From: Nitrospirota bacterium
GTDB lineage: Bacteria > Nitrospirota > Thermodesulfovibrionia > UBA6902
Reading direction: 5' to 3'
Assembly: GCA_016214845.1 (NCBI GenBank)
Contig: JACRMS010000017.1
Coordinates: 1-47,512, forward strand
DNA length: 47,512 nt
The translations under genes and the position numbers were made by a program. The notes below the pieces were generated by a model. That model ran no database searches, was not told the DNA's origin, and was given only the letters and a program-made list of their open reading frames with translations. This document shows, piece after piece, positions 8,848-37,570 of this stretch. Numbering within the stretch: the stretch's first letter is position 1; each line of letters starts with the position of its first letter.

Positions 8848-9447
8848 CTATAGAGTAAGTTGCTCATAAATCCGCTCTACCTGTTTCTCCGCATCACACA
8901 CGTTCCCGTTATTATTTACAAGGAAGTCCGCGAATTTTCTTTTTCTGCTGATTGCCATCTGGGCGCGGAGCCTTTTGAGCGCCTCGTCTTCTGAAAACCC
9001 TTTGCGGGTCAGCCTGCTTATGGCCAGATCTCTTCTGCAGTAAACGACAACGGTTTTATCAAAGTGTTTTTCATAGCCGGCCTCAAACAGGAGGGGGACT
9101 TCAAAGACGATTAACGCGGAAGGATTTTTCTTCGATATCTTTGACTCTGTCTCTTTCACGGTCTTCAGGACCTGCGGGTGAATTATTTTTTCTATTGCCT
9201 TCCGTTTCTCAGGGTCCGCAAAGATGATCTTTGCCACACGCTGCTTGTTCAATGAAATACCGGAAGACTTTTTTATCAGGACTTCTTCACCAAGGGCGCG
9301 GGCGATCTTTTTTATCGTCTCCTGTTTTTTCAGGATGTCATGGACGAATTTATCAATGTCGAAAGTGTATGCCCCATGTTTCTTGAACAACTGCAGTACA
9401 GTGCTCTTCCCCATTCCGAAATTTCCAGTGAGTCCAATGGTCGGCAT
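8848..9447 (-). CDS. coaE: dephospho-CoA kinase
   Basis: CoaE phosphorylates the 3'-hydroxyl of dephospho-CoA, the last step of CoA synthesis. The 199-residue protein starts MPTIGLTGNFGMGKST, a Walker A P-loop at residues 8-16, and has the lid and adenine-binding pattern FEVPLLFEAGYEK near 110-122, which is typical of CoaE. On its strand an extended -10 element (TGTTATAAT, 9462-9454) ends only six bases before the ATG, and no ribosome site is seen, so the message may be leaderless. coaBC, two steps earlier in the same pathway, lies at 19053-20240. Confidence 0.93.
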   Translation of the reverse strand: MPTIGLTGNFGMGKSTVLQLFKKHGAYTFDIDKFVHDILKKQETIKKIARALGEEVLIKKSSGISLNKQRVAKIIFADPEKRKAIEKIIHPQVLKTVKETESKISKKNPSALIVFEVPLLFEAGYEKHFDKTVVVYCRRDLAISRLTRKGFSEDEALKRLRAQMAISRKRKFADFLVNNNGNVCDAEKQVERIYEQLTL

Positions 9448-9453
9448 ATGTGG

Positions 9454-9462
9454 ATTATAACA
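9454..9462 (-). promoter_or_regulatory. extended -10 element of coaE
   Basis: On the minus strand TGTTATAAT is followed by CCACAT and then the coaE ATG, so transcription would start at or next to the start codon. The -35 region is poor, as is common with extended -10 promoters. The promoter is divergent from the kimA promoter 40 bases away. Confidence 0.5.
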
Positions 9463-9498
9463 AAATACCGCTTCTCAATTCGCCGTATCTCACACCTC

Positions 9499-9527
9499 TT
9501 GACAAACAGTCTTAAGGGGAGTAATTT
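9499..9527 (+). promoter_or_regulatory. promoter of the riboswitch-kimA transcript
   Basis: A perfect TTGACA (9499-9504) lies 17 bases before TAATTT (9522-9527), a weak -10. The predicted start falls immediately before the riboswitch aptamer. Confidence 0.5.
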
Positions 9528-9535
9528 AAAGTCAC

Positions 9536-9667
9536 ATAGCAGCCGAAGTCCTCTCAAAGAGGGGACGCGGGGGACCCAATAAAATTGGGGCGTATTCCAG
9601 AAATGGATAGGGCACTTCCAGGCCCGAGCCCGTCAGCTAACCTCGCAGGCATTTGGAAGGGCATAGG
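9536..9667 (+). ncRNA. cyclic di-AMP riboswitch (ydaO/yuaA type)
   Basis: The leader shows the conserved blocks of the ydaO-type aptamer in order: AGCCGAAG (9541-9548), a short stem, GGGGACCCAAT (9570-9580) with ATTGGGGCGTAT after it, AGGGCACTTCC (9609-9619), then GCCCGTCAGCTAACCTCG (9628-9645) with GCAGGC, and the closing GGAAGG. These match what I recall of the Bacillus and Thermoanaerobacter ydaO RNAs. An intrinsic terminator follows directly, so c-di-AMP binding should stop transcription of the potassium importer downstream. This is the classic target of the class: ydaO itself was renamed kimA. Confidence 0.93.
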
Positions 9668-9676
9668 TCTGAAATG

Positions 9677-9703
9677 AAAACCGCTGCCTGGCGGTTTTTT
9701 TAT
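9677..9703 (+). terminator. riboswitch-controlled intrinsic terminator
   Basis: AAAACCGC (9677-9684) and GCGGTTTT (9691-9698) pair around TGCCTG, and the run of T continues from 9695 to 9701. It sits between the aptamer and the kimA ribosome site, as expected for an OFF switch acting by premature termination. Confidence 0.9.
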
Positions 9704-9732
9704 TTCCCTCCGCTTGCCCCGAAGGAGGAGAA

Positions 9733-11544
9733 ATGTCTCTCAAAAACATTCTCATCGGACAGCCGATCGAGACCATCAGGGAAAAGCACGAGCGCCTGAC
9801 AAAGACGACCGGGCTGGCGGTATTTTCATCAGACGCCATGTCGTCCGTGGCTTATGCGACAGAAGAAATACTCTTTGCCCTCGTACTTGCCGGGACCGCG
9901 ATGCTTCATTATTCGATGCCTGTCGCAGTTGGAATCTCAGCGCTTATCGCAATAGTCGCCATGTCATATTTCCAAACGATCCATGCTTATCCAAACGGCG
10001 GCGGCGCGTATATAGTTGCCAAAGACAACCTCGGCACATATCCCGGTCTTGTCGCAGGCGCTTCTTTGCTTATCGATTATGTGCTGACCGTCACAGTCAG
10101 CGTTTCAGCGGGTATCGCGGCGATAACATCAGCCTTCCCGGCGCTCCAGAATCATAAAATCGCATTATGCATTTTTGCCATCGCCCTCGTAATGATCGGC
10201 AACCTGCGCGGGGTCAGGGAATCAGGAAAGATATTTTCCCTTCCTGCATATATTTTTATAGGTTCGCTGTTTATTCTGATAGGGATGGGCATGTCGAAGT
10301 ATTTCGGTATGCCTCATCCGCCTGCGCCTGAATTCAGAGAAGCGTCTGCAAATATATTGCCGGTCTTTCTTATCCTGAGGGCGTTTGCTTCAGGCTGCGC
10401 TGCGCTTACCGGCATAGAGGCTGTGGCAAACGGCGTTCAGGCGTTTAAGCCGCCGGAGTCAAGGAATGCCGGTGTCACTCTTATCTGGATGGCCTTGATA
10501 CTCGGCTCGCTTTTCATGGGAATAACTTTTCTTGCGGACCACTACGGAATAATGCCGAATGAGAACGAGACCGTGCTGTCACAGGTGGCGAGGGCGGTGT
10601 TCTCGAAGGGCATAATTTATTATGTAATACAGTTTTCAACGTCTTTAATACTTATCCTTGCAGCCAACACTTCATTCGCGGATTTCCCAAGGCTTTCATC
10701 CATCATGGCATCCGACCGTTACATGCCGAGACAGTTAAGCAGCAGGGGAGACAAGTTAGTCTTCTCAAACGGAATACTCATCCTCGGGTTCTTTTCTATC
10801 ATTCTTATCGTGATCTTCAGAGGCGATACACACGCTCTTATACCGCTTTATGCCGTCGGGGTTTTTACGGCATTTACCCTTTCACAGGCCGGGATGGTCA
10901 GGCACTGGATCAAGTTCAAAGGTAAGGGATGGATTAAGAACGTCATAATAAATGGCCTGGGCACGTTTACAACTGCAGTCGTCCTTGTTATCATTGCTTC
11001 AACAAAATTCATGCATGGGGCATGGATCGTGATAATCGCGATACCCGGTCTCGTTTTTTTGACACATAAAATACATCAGCATTATATTTCCGTTGCCGAA
11101 CAGCTTTCTCTTGAAGGCGTTGGCGCAGTAAAGGAATACACCCACCATTCGGTTGTGATCCCCGTGTCGGGAGTTCAGAAGGCAGTGCTGAATGCGATTA
11201 AATATGCCAAGGCGCTGTCAGATGATGTGGTCGCGGTTTATATTTGCCTTGATACCGCGGAGATGGAGAGAGTGCAGCTTAAATGGAAGATTTACGGCAT
11301 GGGAGTCCCGCTTGTGGTCCTGCACTCACCATACCGTTCTGTGATTGAGCCTCTGATGGATTACATAGACGGGATTCGTGAACGATATAAAGACGGCATC
11401 ATTACCGTCATACTGCCGGAGTTTGTGCCGCAGAAGTGGTGGCATCACCTCCTCCATAACCAGACAGCGCTTCTGCTGAAAGGCATTATTCTCTTTAAGA
11501 AAGGAGTGGTGTCTACGAGCGTGCCTCTACACCTGAAGGGGTGA
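9733..11544 (+). CDS. kimA: KimA-type high-affinity potassium importer (APC superfamily)
   Basis: The 603-residue protein is an APC-superfamily transporter with about twelve hydrophobic segments between residues 25 and 440 and a soluble C-terminal domain (about 450-603). Family signs are LTKTTGLAVFSSDAMSSVAY near 22-41, PNGGGAYIVAK near 86-96 and the C-terminal HLLHNQTALLLKG. Bacillus KimA has almost the same length and architecture and imports K+ with protons. The upstream c-di-AMP riboswitch supports potassium rather than amino acids as substrate. The ribosome site AAGGAGGAG is strong. No c-di-AMP synthase is in the window. A generic label would be amino acid permease; I prefer KimA because of length, C-terminal domain and riboswitch. 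Confidence 0.88.
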   Translation: MSLKNILIGQPIETIREKHERLTKTTGLAVFSSDAMSSVAYATEEILFALVLAGTAMLHYSMPVAVGISALIAIVAMSYFQTIHAYPNGGGAYIVAKDNLGTYPGLVAGASLLIDYVLTVTVSVSAGIAAITSAFPALQNHKIALCIFAIALVMIGNLRGVRESGKIFSLPAYIFIGSLFILIGMGMSKYFGMPHPPAPEFREASANILPVFLILRAFASGCAALTGIEAVANGVQAFKPPESRNAGVTLIWMALILGSLFMGITFLADHYGIMPNENETVLSQVARAVFSKGIIYYVIQFSTSLILILAANTSFADFPRLSSIMASDRYMPRQLSSRGDKLVFSNGILILGFFSIILIVIFRGDTHALIPLYAVGVFTAFTLSQAGMVRHWIKFKGKGWIKNVIINGLGTFTTAVVLVIIASTKFMHGAWIVIIAIPGLVFLTHKIHQHYISVAEQLSLEGVGAVKEYTHHSVVIPVSGVQKAVLNAIKYAKALSDDVVAVYICLDTAEMERVQLKWKIYGMGVPLVVLHSPYRSVIEPLMDYIDGIRERYKDGIITVILPEFVPQKWWHHLLHNQTALLLKGIILFKKGVVSTSVPLHLKG

Positions 11545-11565
11545 TTTTCAAAGGCAATCATATCC

Positions 11566-11594
11566 TTGACTTACCTCCATAAGGCTGATAATAT
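11566..11594 (+). promoter_or_regulatory. promoter of rpiB-glyA
   Basis: TTGACT (11566-11571) stands 17 bases before TAATAT (11589-11594), which overlaps a TATAAT at 11592-11597. It lies about 80 bases before rpiB in an AT-rich gap. Confidence 0.5.
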
Positions 11595-11673
11595 AATCTA
11601 CTTTTAGAATATATTTAGCAGCTAAATAGAATCGATAATTCTAATTAACAATTCAATCACTTCTGAGGTATAA

Positions 11674-12123
11674 ATGAAAATAGCAATAGGTTGTGACCAC
11701 GCAGGGGTAGCCATGAAAAATGAGATTACCCCGGTATTAAAAGAGCTTGGCATCGAATGGGAAGACTTCGGCACAAAGACCGAGGAGTCTGTTGATTATC
11801 CCGATTTCGGCGAGCGGGTTTCTGAAGCAGTGTCAAGCGGCAAAATGGAAAGAGGCATTCTTATTTGCGGCACAGGGATCGGGATGTCGATTGTCGCAAA
11901 TAAGTTCCCCGGGGTCAGGGCCGCGTTGTGCAGTGAGGCGTTTTCCGCTACGATGAGCAGGCTGCATAATGACGCTAATATACTGGTGCTGCCCGGCAGG
12001 ATTATAGACGGTCCAACCGCGTCTGAAATAGTTAAGGTATGGTTTACAACTCCTTTTGAAGGCGCGCGCCATCAAAGAAGGCTTGATAAAATAAAGGCGA
12101 TTGAATCGAGGCTGTGCAAATGA
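11674..12123 (+). CDS. rpiB: ribose-5-phosphate isomerase B
   Basis: RpiB interconverts ribose 5-phosphate and ribulose 5-phosphate. The 149-residue length is normal. The start [11 protein letters not shown] contains the Asp-His of the active site, and [14 protein letters not shown] (near 64-77) holds the catalytic Cys and the anion-binding loop. RpiB directly upstream of glyA is a frequent bacterial arrangement. Its TGA overlaps the proposed glyA ATG (ATGA), which suggests coupled translation. Confidence 0.95.
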
Positions 12124-31318: not shown

Positions 31319-32491
31319 CTACTTCATGACCTGGTTCAGTTCAAATATCGGCAGGAGGACTGCCACGACAATAAATCCGACCAGCAGCCCCATTGTCAGG
31401 ATGAGGACCGGCTCTAATAATCCGATAGCGCCCCGGAGTTTTCTGTCAAATTCAGCTTCATAAGATTCCGCCGTCTTCATCAGGACCTCAGGCAGTCTGC
31501 CTGTCTGCTCTCCGGTGGAGATGATCTGCAAAATGGTCGGAGGAAATCCTTCAAGGCTGCTTGAGAGCTTGGCGCCCTGCGATATTACTTCCTGCGCGGA
31601 CATGATTTTATTTTCCAGAACTACATTGCCTGTTGCCTTTGCGGTCAGCTTCATCGCGTTTAATATCGGCAGCCCGCCTGACAGGAGAAACCCCATTGTC
31701 ATGGTGAAGCGAAGCATGTAAAGCCCCATGAGGATGCCTGTCGGTTCTTTAAGGAGCAGGCCGTCGATCAGCTCCTTTTTATTTTTCCTGACCCACCTGT
31801 ATAACATCACGACTCCGGCTGCAAGCAGCAGGAGCAGCCACCAGAAATTTTTAAAGACAGAGCTTATCCAGATGAGCACGACAGTGATGAACGGCAGGGA
31901 GGCTGAGGTGTCCTCGAATATCTTTGTTATCTTCGGTATGACAAACGTGAAAAGGAAGATCAGGATCATTACGCTCACGCACGCCATAAAAATGGGATAT
32001 ATGAGGGCTGTCTGGACTTTGCTTTTTACATTGTTTTCGTTTTCGAGATAGTCGGCGAGCTTCATCAGGACCTCCGTCAACTTCCCGCTGCTTTCTCCAG
32101 CTGTGACCATGCCTGTATAAAAATCAGGAAAGATGTCGGGATGCGCCTGCATGGCCCGCGCGAGCGACGCTCCGCCCGACAGCCGGTCTTTTATGTCAAT
32201 CAAAAGATTTTTCCAGGCGCCTTTTTGCTCTGACGCTAATGAGCCTATAGCATCTATAAGGGTCACGCCTGATGAAAGCAGGGTTGAAAGCCTTCTTGTG
32301 ATGCTCGCGAGTACTGCGGGAGACAATCTTTTAAACAGAAGTTTTTGCCGGGAGACTGATTCGGAAATCTCTTTAGGGAAGATGCCTTTTGTTTTGATCT
32401 TTAATGCGGCGTCTTTTTGACCGTCGGCCTCGATAGCGCCGTCTATCACGGTCCCGTTGGCGTCGTATCCTCTGTATTTAAAAATTGGCAT
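31319..32491 (-). CDS. gspF: type II secretion system inner-membrane platform protein GspF
   Basis: GspF is the inner-membrane platform that links the GspE motor to the pseudopilus. The 390-residue protein starts MPIFKYRGYDANGTVIDGAI and contains two T2SSF repeats, the first about 65-190 with LSTLLSSGVTLIDAI and GESSGKLTEVL, the second about 265-390 with LSGGLPILNAM and GEQTGRLPEVL. Three hydrophobic segments lie near 165-190, 210-232 and 360-384. It is the last gene of the cluster: no gspG follows, although a pseudopilin gene normally does. The next 190 bases are toxin-antitoxin debris. Confidence 0.94.
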   Translation of the reverse strand: MPIFKYRGYDANGTVIDGAIEADGQKDAALKIKTKGIFPKEISESVSRQKLLFKRLSPAVLASITRRLSTLLSSGVTLIDAIGSLASEQKGAWKNLLIDIKDRLSGGASLARAMQAHPDIFPDFYTGMVTAGESSGKLTEVLMKLADYLENENNVKSKVQTALIYPIFMACVSVMILIFLFTFVIPKITKIFEDTSASLPFITVVLIWISSVFKNFWWLLLLLAAGVVMLYRWVRKNKKELIDGLLLKEPTGILMGLYMLRFTMTMGFLLSGGLPILNAMKLTAKATGNVVLENKIMSAQEVISQGAKLSSSLEGFPPTILQIISTGEQTGRLPEVLMKTAESYEAEFDRKLRGAIGLLEPVLILTMGLLVGFIVVAVLLPIFELNQVMK

Positions 32492-32589: not shown

Positions 32590-34110
32590 TTATGCTTCCG
32601 CATCCTTCTGCGTTACTCTCAGGACTTCCTCTACTGTTGTAACACCTTTTATGATCTTCTCGACTGCGTTTTTCTGTAAGGGTTTAAACCCGGACTTTAC
32701 TGTTGCCGTTCTCCTGATCACCTGAGCGTCTTTTCTTTCCACGATCATTGTTCTTATATCAGGGGTGATCTCAAGCAGCTCGTAAATCCCGGCCCTGCCG
32801 ATGTAACCTTTGCCGAGGCATTTATCACAGCCTTTGCCGCGATAAAGGACCTTAGGCGCAGGCTCGATCTCAAGATAACTTATTTCTTCCTTTGACGGTG
32901 CATAGGATTCTTTGCAGTGAGGGCAGATCACCCTCACCAGCCGCTGTGCCAGCACGCATACAAGCGACGATGCCACGAGGAACGGCTCTATCCCCATGTC
33001 GATGAGTCTCGTTAATGCGCTCGGCGCATCATTTGTATGCAGAGTGCTGAGAACGAGATGGCCCGTCAGCGAGGCGTGCACAGCGATCTCGGCGGTCTCA
33101 AGGTCCCTGATCTCACCAACCATCATGATGTCCGGGTCCTGCCTCAAAATAGACCGCAGTCCAGCGGCAAACGTCAATCCTATTTTTGGATTTACCTGCA
33201 TCTGCCCGATGCCGCTTAACTGGTATTCAACCGGGTCTTCAACCGTGATGATGTTTCTCTCCTCGGTATTGAGCTTTAGAAGTGAGGCATAAAGCGTTGT
33301 GGTCTTGCCTGAGCCTGTGGGGCCGGTCACGAGGATTATTCCGTTCGGCCTGGACAAGGCCTCTTTGAATACACGTAATATCTCGTCCTCCAGTCCAAGC
33401 TTTTCAAGGCTCAATACGCCCGCGTGCCTGTCAAGCAATCTGAGAACGGCCCTTTCACCAAGAGCAGTCGGTATTATTGAAACCCTGATGTCGATATCTT
33501 TACCGCCTACAAGGAGCCTTATCCTTCCATCCTGCGGGAGCCTTTTCTCCGCGATGTCGAGTCCGGCGATTATCTTTATCCTTGATATGAGAGCGTCCTG
33601 GATTATTCTGGGGGGGCTCAGCACTTTGCGCAATATTCCATCCACCCTGAACCTGACATCGAGTCCCTTTTCATACGGCTCTACATGTATATCGCTTGCC
33701 TTTTCCTTGGCAGCCTCCATAAGCATGGCATTGAGCAATCGTATTATCGGGGCCTCTTCAGTTAGCTCAAGCAGGTCCTGCGGCGATTCAAACTCCGTGG
33801 CGACCATGGACAGGTCTTCGCCTTTGATATCTCCCATCACTTCATTTACCCTGCTGGTCTGGCTGTAGATGCGGTTAATGGCGTCGATAATTACCTTCTC
33901 GTCCGCCTGAACGGGATGGGGCTTCAGATTCAGGCCCCTTGCCATGTCCCTGAGCGCGAAGATTCCGCGGTTATCGGCAACAACGCCTAACAGCTCGCCG
34001 TCCTCTTTCCGCATAGGCAGGAACACATTTCCCTTTACAAATGAAAGGGGGAGGTCCTGTAAAAGTGAGAACTCCATTTCATCGTCTTTTATGCTGTCGA
34101 TTGTTTCCAT
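32590..34110 (-). CDS. gspE: type II secretion system ATPase GspE
   Basis: GspE is the cytoplasmic hexameric motor of the secretion system. The 506-residue protein has an N-terminal adaptor domain (about 1-115), then the ATPase with Walker A GPTGSGKTTT near 265-274, the Asp box and the Walker B region MMVGEIRDLETAEI near 326-339, and a tetra-Cys zinc site (CPHC near 398 and CDKC near 429). This zinc domain is typical of GspE and PilB. The gene has no clear ribosome site. Confidence 0.95.
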   Translation of the reverse strand: METIDSIKDDEMEFSLLQDLPLSFVKGNVFLPMRKEDGELLGVVADNRGIFALRDMARGLNLKPHPVQADEKVIIDAINRIYSQTSRVNEVMGDIKGEDLSMVATEFESPQDLLELTEEAPIIRLLNAMLMEAAKEKASDIHVEPYEKGLDVRFRVDGILRKVLSPPRIIQDALISRIKIIAGLDIAEKRLPQDGRIRLLVGGKDIDIRVSIIPTALGERAVLRLLDRHAGVLSLEKLGLEDEILRVFKEALSRPNGIILVTGPTGSGKTTTLYASLLKLNTEERNIITVEDPVEYQLSGIGQMQVNPKIGLTFAAGLRSILRQDPDIMMVGEIRDLETAEIAVHASLTGHLVLSTLHTNDAPSALTRLIDMGIEPFLVASSLVCVLAQRLVRVICPHCKESYAPSKEEISYLEIEPAPKVLYRGKGCDKCLGKGYIGRAGIYELLEITPDIRTMIVERKDAQVIRRTATVKSGFKPLQKNAVEKIIKGVTTVEEVLRVTQKDAEA

Positions 34111-34129: not shown

Positions 34130-34191
34130 CAGTGATTAGTGTCAGTTCACTATTGCTGACTCTGTTAGTGGCACTTACACTGTCTCATATT
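34130..34191. repeat. quasi-palindromic spacer between gspD and gspE
   Basis: GACAGTGTCAGTG and a complementary CACTTACACTGTC enclose repeats of AGTGTCAG-like words, giving a long imperfect hairpin. It extends into the last codons of gspD on the minus strand. Confidence 0.5.
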
Positions 34192-36605
34192 TTCTTTCTT
34201 ACCAGCAGCGGTTTTACGTTCAACTTCTTTTTAATCTCTTTCGCAATGAGCAGGCCCTGTTCTTTACTCATGATGCCGGGGACCCTTACTTTGTTGAAAT
34301 TATTTTCCTCAACGATGAATGCTTCCGGGTAATCGCCTTTTAATTTTTCAAGCACGCCCTGTGCATTTCTAATGTCTTTCCATGAGCCTATCTGGATAAA
34401 ATATTTGCCTGACGGGGTTGTTTCCGGCGCGGGTTTCTCAGTATTTAAAGTTTTTTTTTCCGTTGGCGCGGGTGTATCAGCCGGGGGAACTGCGATTTCC
34501 GTGTTGTTTTCGGTTTGAGACTTGGCAGGCGGAACAGCAGCGTTATCGATAACAGGTTCAATAGTTTGTTCCGGAACAGTTTTTTGTTCCTGGTCTTGCG
34601 GGGCGGCTTTGCTCTCTTGAGGGACAGCGGGTTTCTCTTTCTGCATTGTGTCCGAGTCCAGCGGCGGGTTAGTTATCTTGATCCTGTAATTCGGTTCCGC
34701 GTAGAGGACTTCAGGCATGGAAGAAAATTCTTTTAAGGCGCCTTCCACTTCCTGCCCGGATTTCAACTGGATATGGTAGACATTTATATCTTTTAAATAA
34801 GCTATAACCGACGCCCTCTTTTGCGCAATGATCTCCAGCGCCCTTTCTTTTGAAACATCGTCTTTAAACCGTACCAACAGTTCACCTACATGATAAAATT
34901 TTTCCCTCTCCACAAATGTCTTATGCTTCTCATCCGTTATCTTTATCAGTTGGTCCGAGTCCTTGACAACATGCGGTGACAGGAATACCAGAAGGTTCGT
35001 CTTGTTTTTTGTCACACTTGTTGTCTTGAAAAGCCAGCCCAATACAGGTATGTCGCCAAGCAACGGCATCTTTGTTACGGACTCCTCTTCTTTTTCCTGC
35101 ATCAGGCCGCTGATGACAACCGTGCGTCCGTCCCTGACAACAACGGAAGTCTTTGTTGAGCGCTTGGTGGTTGTGGGGCCCACTGTTGTCAGGACAGCTT
35201 CAGAGGTATCTTTGACCGCCGAGATCTCCTGCTTGATATCAAGCCTGACATAATCCCCCTCTGTTATCTGGGGAGTGATCTTGAGCATTATGCCGACGTC
35301 CTGTCTCTCTATGGAGTTTAAAACCGTATTGGTGGTAGTTACGTCGCGTTCCCTTTTTGAAATAAACGGCACGTTTTCTCCGACTAATATTTCCGCCTCT
35401 TCATTGTCGGATGTCAGTATCTGTGGAGTTGAGAGGACATTTACGGCGTCTTTGAATTCGTTCAGGTTGAAGAGGGCCGCGAAACCGGGGGCTGTAAGGG
35501 TTGTGGATGTAGCGGCCCCGCTTGAATCTATGGAAGAGATGGGGATGTCGATGAAGTTGCCCATTCCGCCGGCAGTAAATCCCGTTAAACCGTTAACGAT
35601 CGAAACTAGGGAGCTTGAACTCAAATTCCCAAAGCCGCCGATAACGATCGGTTCACCGTTATGGCTTACCGTGGCCCTCCATTTTGATCCGAGCTCCTTT
35701 AGCTTGTCGATCGAGGCCTCAACAATCATGGCCTCAACGTACACCTGCTTTCTTCTCCTGTCGAGGGTCTTTATGACCTGCGCGATATTTTCATACTCGG
35801 AAGGGGGCGCGACAACGACAAGTGAGTTGGTCGATTTGTCGGGCGTTACGCTTAATGTCGGGACCGAATCAGGAGACTTCTGTTTGTCCCTCTGTGAAGC
35901 CTTGTAGGCTGTCTGGAGGTTTTTCAATATTCCTTCAAGCACCTTTGCAAGAGTCACCGCGTCCGCGTTTTCGAGAAAGTAGACACTCACCTTTGCGGTT
36001 TCTTCCTGGGCCGAGGGGAGGTCGATCAATTTCAGAATGGACATTACTTTTTCCATATTCAGGGCGGAATCCACAACAAGCAGGAAATTGCCCGGGCCGA
36101 AGGCGGAGATATGACCGTCTCTTGAAACCACCGGACGAAGGAACTGTATAGCGTCATCAGCCTTGATGTTCTGGGTCGGAATGAGTTTTGTGATGTACCC
36201 TTCATTAACGGGGATCTTTTCGTCCGTAGATAGCTGGCCTTCCTCCTTTGCCTGCGAAGCCAGGATGATCTTGTACGTCTTGGGGCCGGACGGGATTATG
36301 GTGTAGCCTTTCAGGCCCAATACGGAAGTAAAGAGCGAGAAGGATTCGTCAATGGAAAGCTTTGCCGGCGCTATGATGGTGATCTTTCCTTTGACCTTGT
36401 CGTCAAAGATGAAGTTGTTGCCTGTTATCTCGCTGATGAATTTTATTATCGTCGGTATGTCGACATCAATGAAATTGAAGGCGATGTTCTCATCTGACTT
36501 CCTGTTTTCGGAAAAGGAGAGTCCGGGTGTGAGCGAAAAGGTAAATACAAGCAGACAGATCAAACACAGGGTCCTGACAACTTTCATTTTACCGGTATCT
36601 TTCAT
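34185..36605 (-). CDS. gspD: type II secretion secretin GspD with C-terminal subtilase-prodomain-like and SPOR domains
   Basis: GspD forms the outer-membrane channel. The 806-residue protein has a signal peptide (to about 31), an N0 domain (40-120, IAFNFIDVDIPTIIKFISEI), N1 and N2 domains (about 135-200 and 203-285), and the secretin domain (about 288-550) with VPFISKRERD and LLGDIPVLGWLFKTTS. Unusually, three further parts follow. Residues 573-643 (GELLVRFKDDVSKERALEII to SSMPEVLYAEPNYR) resemble the prodomain of subtilisin-like proteases. Residues 644-731 are a Pro/Glu/Thr-rich linker. Residues 732-804 are a SPOR domain (GKYFIQIGSWKDIRNAQGVL), which in other proteins binds denuded peptidoglycan. 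ATG at residue 7 is an alternative start. Confidence 0.92.
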   Translation of the reverse strand: MKDTGKMKVVRTLCLICLLVFTFSLTPGLSFSENRKSDENIAFNFIDVDIPTIIKFISEITGNNFIFDDKVKGKITIIAPAKLSIDESFSLFTSVLGLKGYTIIPSGPKTYKIILASQAKEEGQLSTDEKIPVNEGYITKLIPTQNIKADDAIQFLRPVVSRDGHISAFGPGNFLLVVDSALNMEKVMSILKLIDLPSAQEETAKVSVYFLENADAVTLAKVLEGILKNLQTAYKASQRDKQKSPDSVPTLSVTPDKSTNSLVVVAPPSEYENIAQVIKTLDRRRKQVYVEAMIVEASIDKLKELGSKWRATVSHNGEPIVIGGFGNLSSSSLVSIVNGLTGFTAGGMGNFIDIPISSIDSSGAATSTTLTAPGFAALFNLNEFKDAVNVLSTPQILTSDNEEAEILVGENVPFISKRERDVTTTNTVLNSIERQDVGIMLKITPQITEGDYVRLDIKQEISAVKDTSEAVLTTVGPTTTKRSTKTSVVVRDGRTVVISGLMQEKEEESVTKMPLLGDIPVLGWLFKTTSVTKNKTNLLVFLSPHVVKDSDQLIKITDEKHKTFVEREKFYHVGELLVRFKDDVSKERALEIIAQKRASVIAYLKDINVYHIQLKSGQEVEGALKEFSSMPEVLYAEPNYRIKITNPPLDSDTMQKEKPAVPQESKAAPQDQEQKTVPEQTIEPVIDNAAVPPAKSQTENNTEIAVPPADTPAPTEKKTLNTEKPAPETTPSGKYFIQIGSWKDIRNAQGVLEKLKGDYPEAFIVEENNFNKVRVPGIMSKEQGLLIAKEIKKKLNVKPLLVRKKI

Positions 36606-36649: not shown

Positions 36650-37570
36650 CTACCTTATGCGATAAGTCATCGACATGTTTTGATCGTTCCTGATTATGTC
36701 AAGATTAACGCTGTTCATCCCCTTCAATGCCGTCATTGCCTGCATCGCGACTTCGGCGTTTGAGATCTCAAGGCCGTTTATCCTTAACAATATGTCGCCG
36801 TTCCTTAACCCAAGACTTTGATAAATGCCCCCCGGCACTACCTCGCTTATTTTGAATCCCGACTGTTTACCGTCCTTGATATTTGGCAGCAGTCTCGCCT
36901 CGGTCAGTATCTTTTCGGGATTCTCAAGAGATTGCTGAACCCTCCGGCTGTCGAGGATGTATTCCTTCTCGCCGACCTTTTTGGCAAAGGATGGCCGCTG
37001 AGATTCAGTAGACTGCTCCGGAGCTGACGCTGAAGCCGACGGCAAATCCTGCAGCGGGATGGCGCTGATAACAGAGTTTTGTTCTATTTCAATGGACGAC
37101 TTTTCTATTTTTATTAAGGTCCCGTAATTAAAGACCTCAGTGCCGTATCTGAAGACCTCCTGCTTGCCCGGAGATTGCACCTTGTCCTCAAAGATCGCGT
37201 AACTCAGATTTTTGGGGCCGACCACGGTCCCGACGAGGATGAGGTTTGACAAAGGACTGGGCTGGGCCGCATTCTCCTCGGAGACCTCAATTGGGCTGAG
37301 TGTCATGGGCGGGCCAAAAGGGTTTTTTTCAAGGATGGGCGAATAATACATGAGAGGTTTTTTGCTTGCTGCTTTTTGCACGGCCATTTTACTTTCGGAA
37401 GCCGCCGGGCGCGGTTGTTTCTTTGAAAGCGTGGTGCTGACGATACTGCGGACGAGCAGGAGGCTTGCAATTAGAATAAGCGCCCCGAGAAAATAGTTGA
37501 GCAGGTAAAGCTTCTTAAATGAAAATTCAAACATTTTTATTAGCTTAAACTTTTGCCGGTTCGCTGTCAA
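36650..37570 (-). CDS. gspC: type II secretion system protein GspC with PDZ domain
   Basis: GspC links the inner-membrane platform to GspD. The 306-residue protein has one transmembrane segment (about 18-42, LLNYFLGALILIASLLLV), a homology region (about 80-170, with NPFGPP and LILVGTVVG) and a C-terminal PDZ domain (about 205-306, with ISEVVPGGIYQSLGLRNGD). Short linker sequences are Ser/Ala/Pro-rich. It precedes gspD by 44 bases and follows the phosphorylase gene by 33 bases, so all five minus-strand genes may be one transcript. Confidence 0.9.
   Translation of the reverse strand: MTANRQKFKLIKMFEFSFKKLYLLNYFLGALILIASLLLVRSIVSTTLSKKQPRPAASESKMAVQKAASKKPLMYYSPILEKNPFGPPMTLSPIEVSEENAAQPSPLSNLILVGTVVGPKNLSYAIFEDKVQSPGKQEVFRYGTEVFNYGTLIKIEKSSIEIEQNSVISAIPLQDLPSASASAPEQSTESQRPSFAKKVGEKEYILDSRRVQQSLENPEKILTEARLLPNIKDGKQSGFKISEVVPGGIYQSLGLRNGDILLRINGLEISNAEVAMQAMTALKGMNSVNLDIIRNDQNMSMTYRIR

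Follow-up and report, generated by a model that had tools for sequence, protein, structure and literature searches.

A subtilisin-type prodomain module at the C-terminus of the type II secretin in Thermodesulfovibrionia

The secretin GspD of the type II secretion system (T2SS), in its Klebsiella/Vibrio form, is made of domains N0 to N3, a barrel and a C-terminal extension, a short S-domain that binds a pilotin. A variant of this plan has been described in Legionella, where the T2SS secretin LspD carries an N-terminal SPOR domain (PMC9239104). We consider here the gspD gene found in a stretch of 47,512 nucleotides (henceforth the window: contig JACRMS010000017.1 of assembly GCA_016214845.1), which belongs to a Nitrospirota bacterium of the class Thermodesulfovibrionia. 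Its product follows the Klebsiella/Vibrio order of N0 to N3 and barrel, and its C-terminal extension begins at the equivalent point, but the S-domain is replaced there by a single helix and a folded prodomain of the subtilisin type. As in LspD, this GspD-type secretin possesses its own SPOR domain, of the peptidoglycan-binding kind; that of LspD is N-terminal, located before N0, with no prodomain described, whereas that of the window is C-terminal, behind the prodomain and a Pro-rich linker (PMC9239104). An original prediction, made from the letters of the window, had noticed this tail, which is confirmed, and had taken no such secretin to be known. This has to be qualified, as a SPOR domain on a T2SS secretin was already known with LspD, but we found no description of a secretin with a subtilisin-type prodomain in the open-access literature, most subscription journals being outside the search.

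The protein scores 479 bits against the GspD family TIGR02517 (cut-off 351, NCBIfam), and the N0 domain, the N-type repeats and the barrel are all present. The helix that follows them, at residues 549 to 567, lies at the point where the S-domain starts in other GspDs. Beyond it, residues 568 to 639 match the Fervidolysin_NPro-like family PF22148 (E=5.7e-12, 46.3 bits for a cut-off of 21, Pfam), and fervidolysin is the closest sequence match in the PDB (E=0.004). In a model of the tail obtained with AlphaFold2, from an input that included 21 tails from relatives, the module is predicted to adopt the prodomain topology at a pLDDT of 93-98, and its top Foldseek matches are pro-subtilisin E, the prosegment of subtilisin BPN' and fervidolysin. 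Structural alignment (VIA) gave Z 9.5 with the prodomain of PC1/3 (9fic), 9.1 with the BPN' prosegment (1spb), 9.0 with 1scj and 7.6 with POIA1, a free-standing inhibitor whose structure was determined on subtilisin (1v5i), scores to be read beside the Z 7 to 8 reached by unrelated ferredoxin-like folds (RRM, ACT): the prodomain matches are only somewhat higher, and the family call comes mainly from the sequence profile. Taken together, the profile score and the structural matches exclude a chance similarity and support the view that residues 568 to 645 are a true relative of the subtilisin-type (I9 fold) prodomains. The original prediction had recognized such a prodomain at residues 573 to 643, within a span (34194-34889) that covers residues 573 to 804 of GspD, the module proper starting around residue 568. 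It had named as possible objections the absence of an I9 or fervidolysin fold match and a frameshift joining a separate gene; the former is answered by the matches to 1spb and 9fic, and, the latter having been looked for, GspD proved to be a single open frame, as are the similar tails of two related genomes (G001 and G002). Recurring in many genomes, the tail is not the product of a frameshift or a chimera. The module evolves under purifying selection, with a pN/pS of 0.26 compared with 0.09 for the barrel and 0.64 for the fast-evolving Pro-rich linker at residues 646 to 729. In two GspDs (L042 and L043, of genomes G043 and G038) an insertion of about 30 residues with two cysteines stands between its third strand and its second helix.

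Orthologues of GspD were gathered from 61 relatives and from 296 genomes of the phylum. The module is present in 92 of the 98 GspDs from the Thermodesulfovibrionia genomes examined, the other six ending in short tails, and no GspD outside the class was found to carry it, all the matches listed there stopping short of the module. When 84,980 species were scanned with one conserved peptide pattern, the best 80 matches included the module on a secretin at 43 loci, on a subtilase at 13 and as a stand-alone form at 23; this pattern is narrow, so that secretins with a divergent module elsewhere may have escaped it. The titled secretin loci belong to Nitrospirota, mostly Thermodesulfovibrionia, and two bearing the title 'Deferribacteres' correspond to genomes from the family of the window. 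The joining of a prodomain to the T2SS secretin is class-wide, a larger phenomenon than that originally reported.

Such a distribution can be understood in more than one way. The prodomain fold might have been recruited once as a C-terminal cap taking over from the S-domain and its pilotin (in targeting, barrel clamping or contact with GspB or GspC), its ability to bind proteases being lost. The location of the module where the S-domain begins, its near-universality in the class, where it is kept without excess decay in 14 genomes showing no S8 (subtilase) gene, and the short tails of the six GspDs that lack it all agree with this explanation, which we nevertheless see as rather unlikely, because the residues that would face a protease are better kept than most of the module. 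The BPN' propeptide uses Glu69 and Asp71 to cap protease helices (PMC6993865). These two residues align with E637 and N639 of GspD, and in the 92 module-bearing proteins the first position is Glu in 88 and the second Asn, Asp or Glu in 89; these are among the best-conserved columns of the module. The tail past the last strand argues in the same direction. T645 superposes, in the structural alignment, on Tyr77, the P1 residue of the BPN' prosegment, and among 63 non-redundant GspDs (a set picked by an EPN-containing motif, hence leaving out the most divergent tails) P4 is Val, Ile, Met, Leu or Phe in 58 and P2 is Ile, Leu, Met or Val in 56. The C-terminus falls exactly at P1 in 12 of these 63 proteins and no more than five residues from it in 30, and the GspDs that stop at P1 look, in their sequence, like an already cleaved prodomain.

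The relatives of the module lead us to the same point. The stand-alone forms are mostly apparent lipoproteins of Nitrospira, with a lipobox-like motif (judged by eye), and an S8 gene lies directly 3' of 22 of the 23. The closest free-standing relatives of the GspD module are precisely these Nitrospira forms placed directly upstream of a subtilase, and this pairing also speaks against a purely structural cap. The GspDs of three Nitrospira genomes tested are without the module, their matches ending by residue 584. In a tree of 169 modules, those of GspD and the stand-alone forms of Nitrospira stand mostly on one side and the cis prodomains on the other, with a weak dividing branch (45/72), so that we claim no origin for the GspD module. 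Several of the stand-alone loci deserve mention. A Nitrospira cassette (L101:3830-7135) associates a stand-alone prodomain, an apparent lipoprotein, with an S8 subtilase that bears JDVT-CTERM and with the intramembrane protease MrtJ, and L116 has a module, a subtilase and a similar downstream gene in the same order. In a contig titled Pseudomonadota (L128:519-3183) a module gene is directly 5' of an S8 subtilase, which extends the pairing beyond Nitrospira. A candidate bridge between the two arrangements (L100: stand-alone module, S8 gene, GspC-like gene) had to be discarded, the GspC match being far under cut-off, with no gspD following and no secretin-type match found in that genome.

Prodomains catalyse folding as well as inhibit, and lipase foldases serve the lipases of the T2SS as steric chaperones. 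The module could thus be a steric chaperone acting in trans on exported proteases, rather than an inhibitor or a docking site, as the dual activity of prodomains and the position of the Nitrospira lipoproteins, encoded just 5' of the protease, would allow. We regard this as improbable, since a cis prodomain scoring above the Pfam cut-off is present in every operonic subtilase scanned, which would make a second foldase superfluous, and since a tail ending at P1 suits product-like inhibition.

Subtilases are neighbours of the secretin in several genomes of the class, a further difficulty for the view that protease binding was lost. Of 47 genomes of the class, 11 have an S8 gene no farther than 12 kb from gspD, for 0.78 expected under random placement, a statistic that is not corrected for kinship, six of the eleven genomes being of one family. 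In at least four families subtilase genes are inside or adjoin the gsp operon, the gene order being S8-C-D-E-F in f8, F-S8-G in f11, C-D-E-F-S8 in f15 and S8-C..N-S8 in f18; at individual loci the subtilase is 5' of gspC (L171), between gspF and gspG (L208), 3' of gspF (L168, L169) or at both ends of the operon (L170, L172, L173). The subtilases of L168, L169, L171 and L208, together with one from the window's genome (L007), carry a CFI-box-CTERM domain. The T2SS brings the related MYXO-CTERM proteins to the surface (PMC11980579), and by analogy CFI-box proteins may also be exported to the surface by this route. At L169 (positions 9031-11826, genome G172), S8, CFI-box-CTERM and T2SSG (GspG) follow gspF in one frame of 931 residues, which may be a genuine fusion or come from an overlooked stop.

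We may therefore formulate the role of the module as a well-supported hypothesis, not a result. It seems to us somewhat probable, judging from homology and fold, from conservation and distribution, and from the linkage to subtilases in operons, that GspD carries a ring of trans-acting prodomains that bind exported subtilases, both docking and inhibiting them. We are more reserved, and put it forward as a possibility short of an even chance, about the broader proposal that GspD is a pore combined with a dedicated substrate receptor and a safety catch, the ring capturing and silencing exported subtilases at the mouth of the channel. In the ancestor of the class an I9-fold prodomain would have been joined to the secretin for good, and known secretin topology would place fifteen periplasmic copies around the base of the channel. 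Each copy would take hold of a T2SS-exported subtilase by its catalytic domain, the face of its sheet and the E-x-N pair contacting helices of the protease while the hydrophobic P4/P2 tail occupies the active-site cleft. The subtilase would thus be docked and held inactive at the exit, shielding the machine from its own cargo. That the prodomain could bind a secreted subtilase, as originally suggested, is made plausible by interface conservation, operon context and stand-alone relatives beside subtilases.

Several observations weigh against this proposal. The E-x-N motif, located where a folded strand ends, may play a structural role, and the subtilases' own cis prodomains mean that a copy in trans could be redundant. 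Profile searches of the draft genomes detected no S8 gene in 14 module-bearing genomes, among which some are complete or nearly so (G057, G190 and G197, 100%; G037 and G205, 99%), so that a subtilase is not always present; loss or decay of the module in such genomes was not borne out once barrel divergence was allowed for (P=0.75). Conversely, subtilases occur in two genomes (G006 and G007) that lack a GspD orthologue. The module may thus serve some other purpose, in addition or instead. In the window's genome we did find three subtilases with prodomains, as the original prediction had asked to check, on contigs other than that of gspD, and no S8 gene adjoining gspD was found in this genome or its family. 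Its T2SS, furthermore, may be incomplete or incompletely assembled: unrelated genes follow gspF in the window (31319 and below), and gspG and gspL, which most relatives tested possess, were found nowhere in the genome, either through loss or through an assembly gap, the two being indistinguishable in a 96% complete draft. One may imagine another partner altogether, be it a protease of another family, cargo other than a subtilase, or peptidoglycan, the link to S8 reflecting shared ancestry and operon history only. The genomes without S8 and a P1 residue that is mostly Gln, where subtilisin prodomains typically have a hydrophobic residue, would fit; no alternative candidate was found, and the interface, tail, operon and stand-alone evidence opposes it as it does a structural cap, so that we hold it very unlikely.

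The SPOR domain has another history. At residues 731 to 802 it matches PF05036 (E=2.2e-8, 34.7 bits, cut-off 21, Pfam), its fold is predicted at a pLDDT of 96-98 (AlphaFold2) behind a disordered linker, and its best structural match is the SPOR domain of RlpA (6i05, Z 11.2, VIA), in keeping with its original placement at residues 732 to 804. It is found in only 15 GspDs, all in part of one family, and its pattern on the secretin tree requires seven changes, of which well-supported branches impose five; one gain followed by repeated loss is the simplest explanation. The domain is an optional feature, acquired later inside a single family, and it does not form a single unit with the class-wide prodomain. 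Two close relatives (L022 and L040, GspDs of G010 and G030) differ by SPOR loss, the shorter one stopping within the linker in a truncation-like manner. The idea that SPOR anchors the channel in place of GspA and GspB is refuted, for both are encoded in the window's genome: GspB (T2SSB, E=2.7e-20) and, adjoining it, a GspA with AAA, GspA C39-like and PG_binding_1 domains. With this peptidoglycan-binding anchor in place, SPOR would supplement rather than replace it; in the subclade concerned it would also tether the assembly, on its disordered linker, to denuded glycans of peptidoglycan.

The order gspC-D-E-F of the window is that found throughout the class, and the features of the locus are collected in the table below.

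Features of the gspD locus in the window (forward-strand positions)
Feature	Coordinates	Strand	Basis
gspD, type II secretin	34185..36605	minus	806 aa, ATG start, one open reading frame (ORF); TIGR02517
Secretin body (N0 44-113, N1-N3-type repeats, barrel to about residue 548)	34962..36476	minus	PF21305, PF03958, PF00263
Linker helix, residues 549-567	34905..34961	minus	predicted helix 7-24 of tail model
Prodomain module, residues 568-645	34671..34904	minus	PF22148, model, structural matches
E637-P638-N639, putative capping pair	34689..34697	minus	alignment to BPN' propeptide, conservation, PMC6993865
Pro-rich disordered linker, residues 646-729	34419..34670	minus	pLDDT about 50; pN/pS 0.64
SPOR domain, residues 730-803	34197..34418	minus	PF05036; RlpA SPOR 6i05 Z 11.2
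gspC (PDZ type), upstream of gspD	36650..37570	minus	ORF; homologues directly 5' of gspD class-wide
gspE	32590..34110	minus	ORF; homologues in relatives
gspF	31319..32491	minus	ORF; homologues in relatives

As a whole, the original interpretation is partly supported. How the T2SS recognizes folded cargo, and how active proteases are exported without harm to the exporter, are questions that the module makes directly testable, with a defined receptor domain, a cargo family and mutable residues; the lipoprotein-subtilase pair of Nitrospira offers a further, simpler way to run the test. Were the proposal true, an entire bacterial class would possess a secretin into which the receptor for one family of cargo is built. 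Prodomain folds that work apart from their protease, as we propose for GspD, are known in POIA1, the yeast proteinase B inhibitor and SUB1-ProM, the latter being, like the GspD module, encoded beside subtilase genes and endowed with Glu and Asn at the capping positions (PMC6993865). These are eukaryotic soluble proteins, whereas the module described here belongs to an outer-membrane channel or to an apparent lipoprotein in Nitrospira. The prodomain of fervidolysin (PF22148; 1r6v), closest by sequence among named families and similar in fold, acts in cis, is N-terminal and is removed on maturation, while that of GspD is C-terminal in a secretin and permanent. Inh and AprI, periplasmic protease inhibitors encoded in protease-secretion operons, come close to the proposed role, as envelope inhibitors encoded with the exported protease; they differ by their fold, by the family of the protease and by their association with type I secretion, and they are separate from the channel, of which the GspD module is a part.
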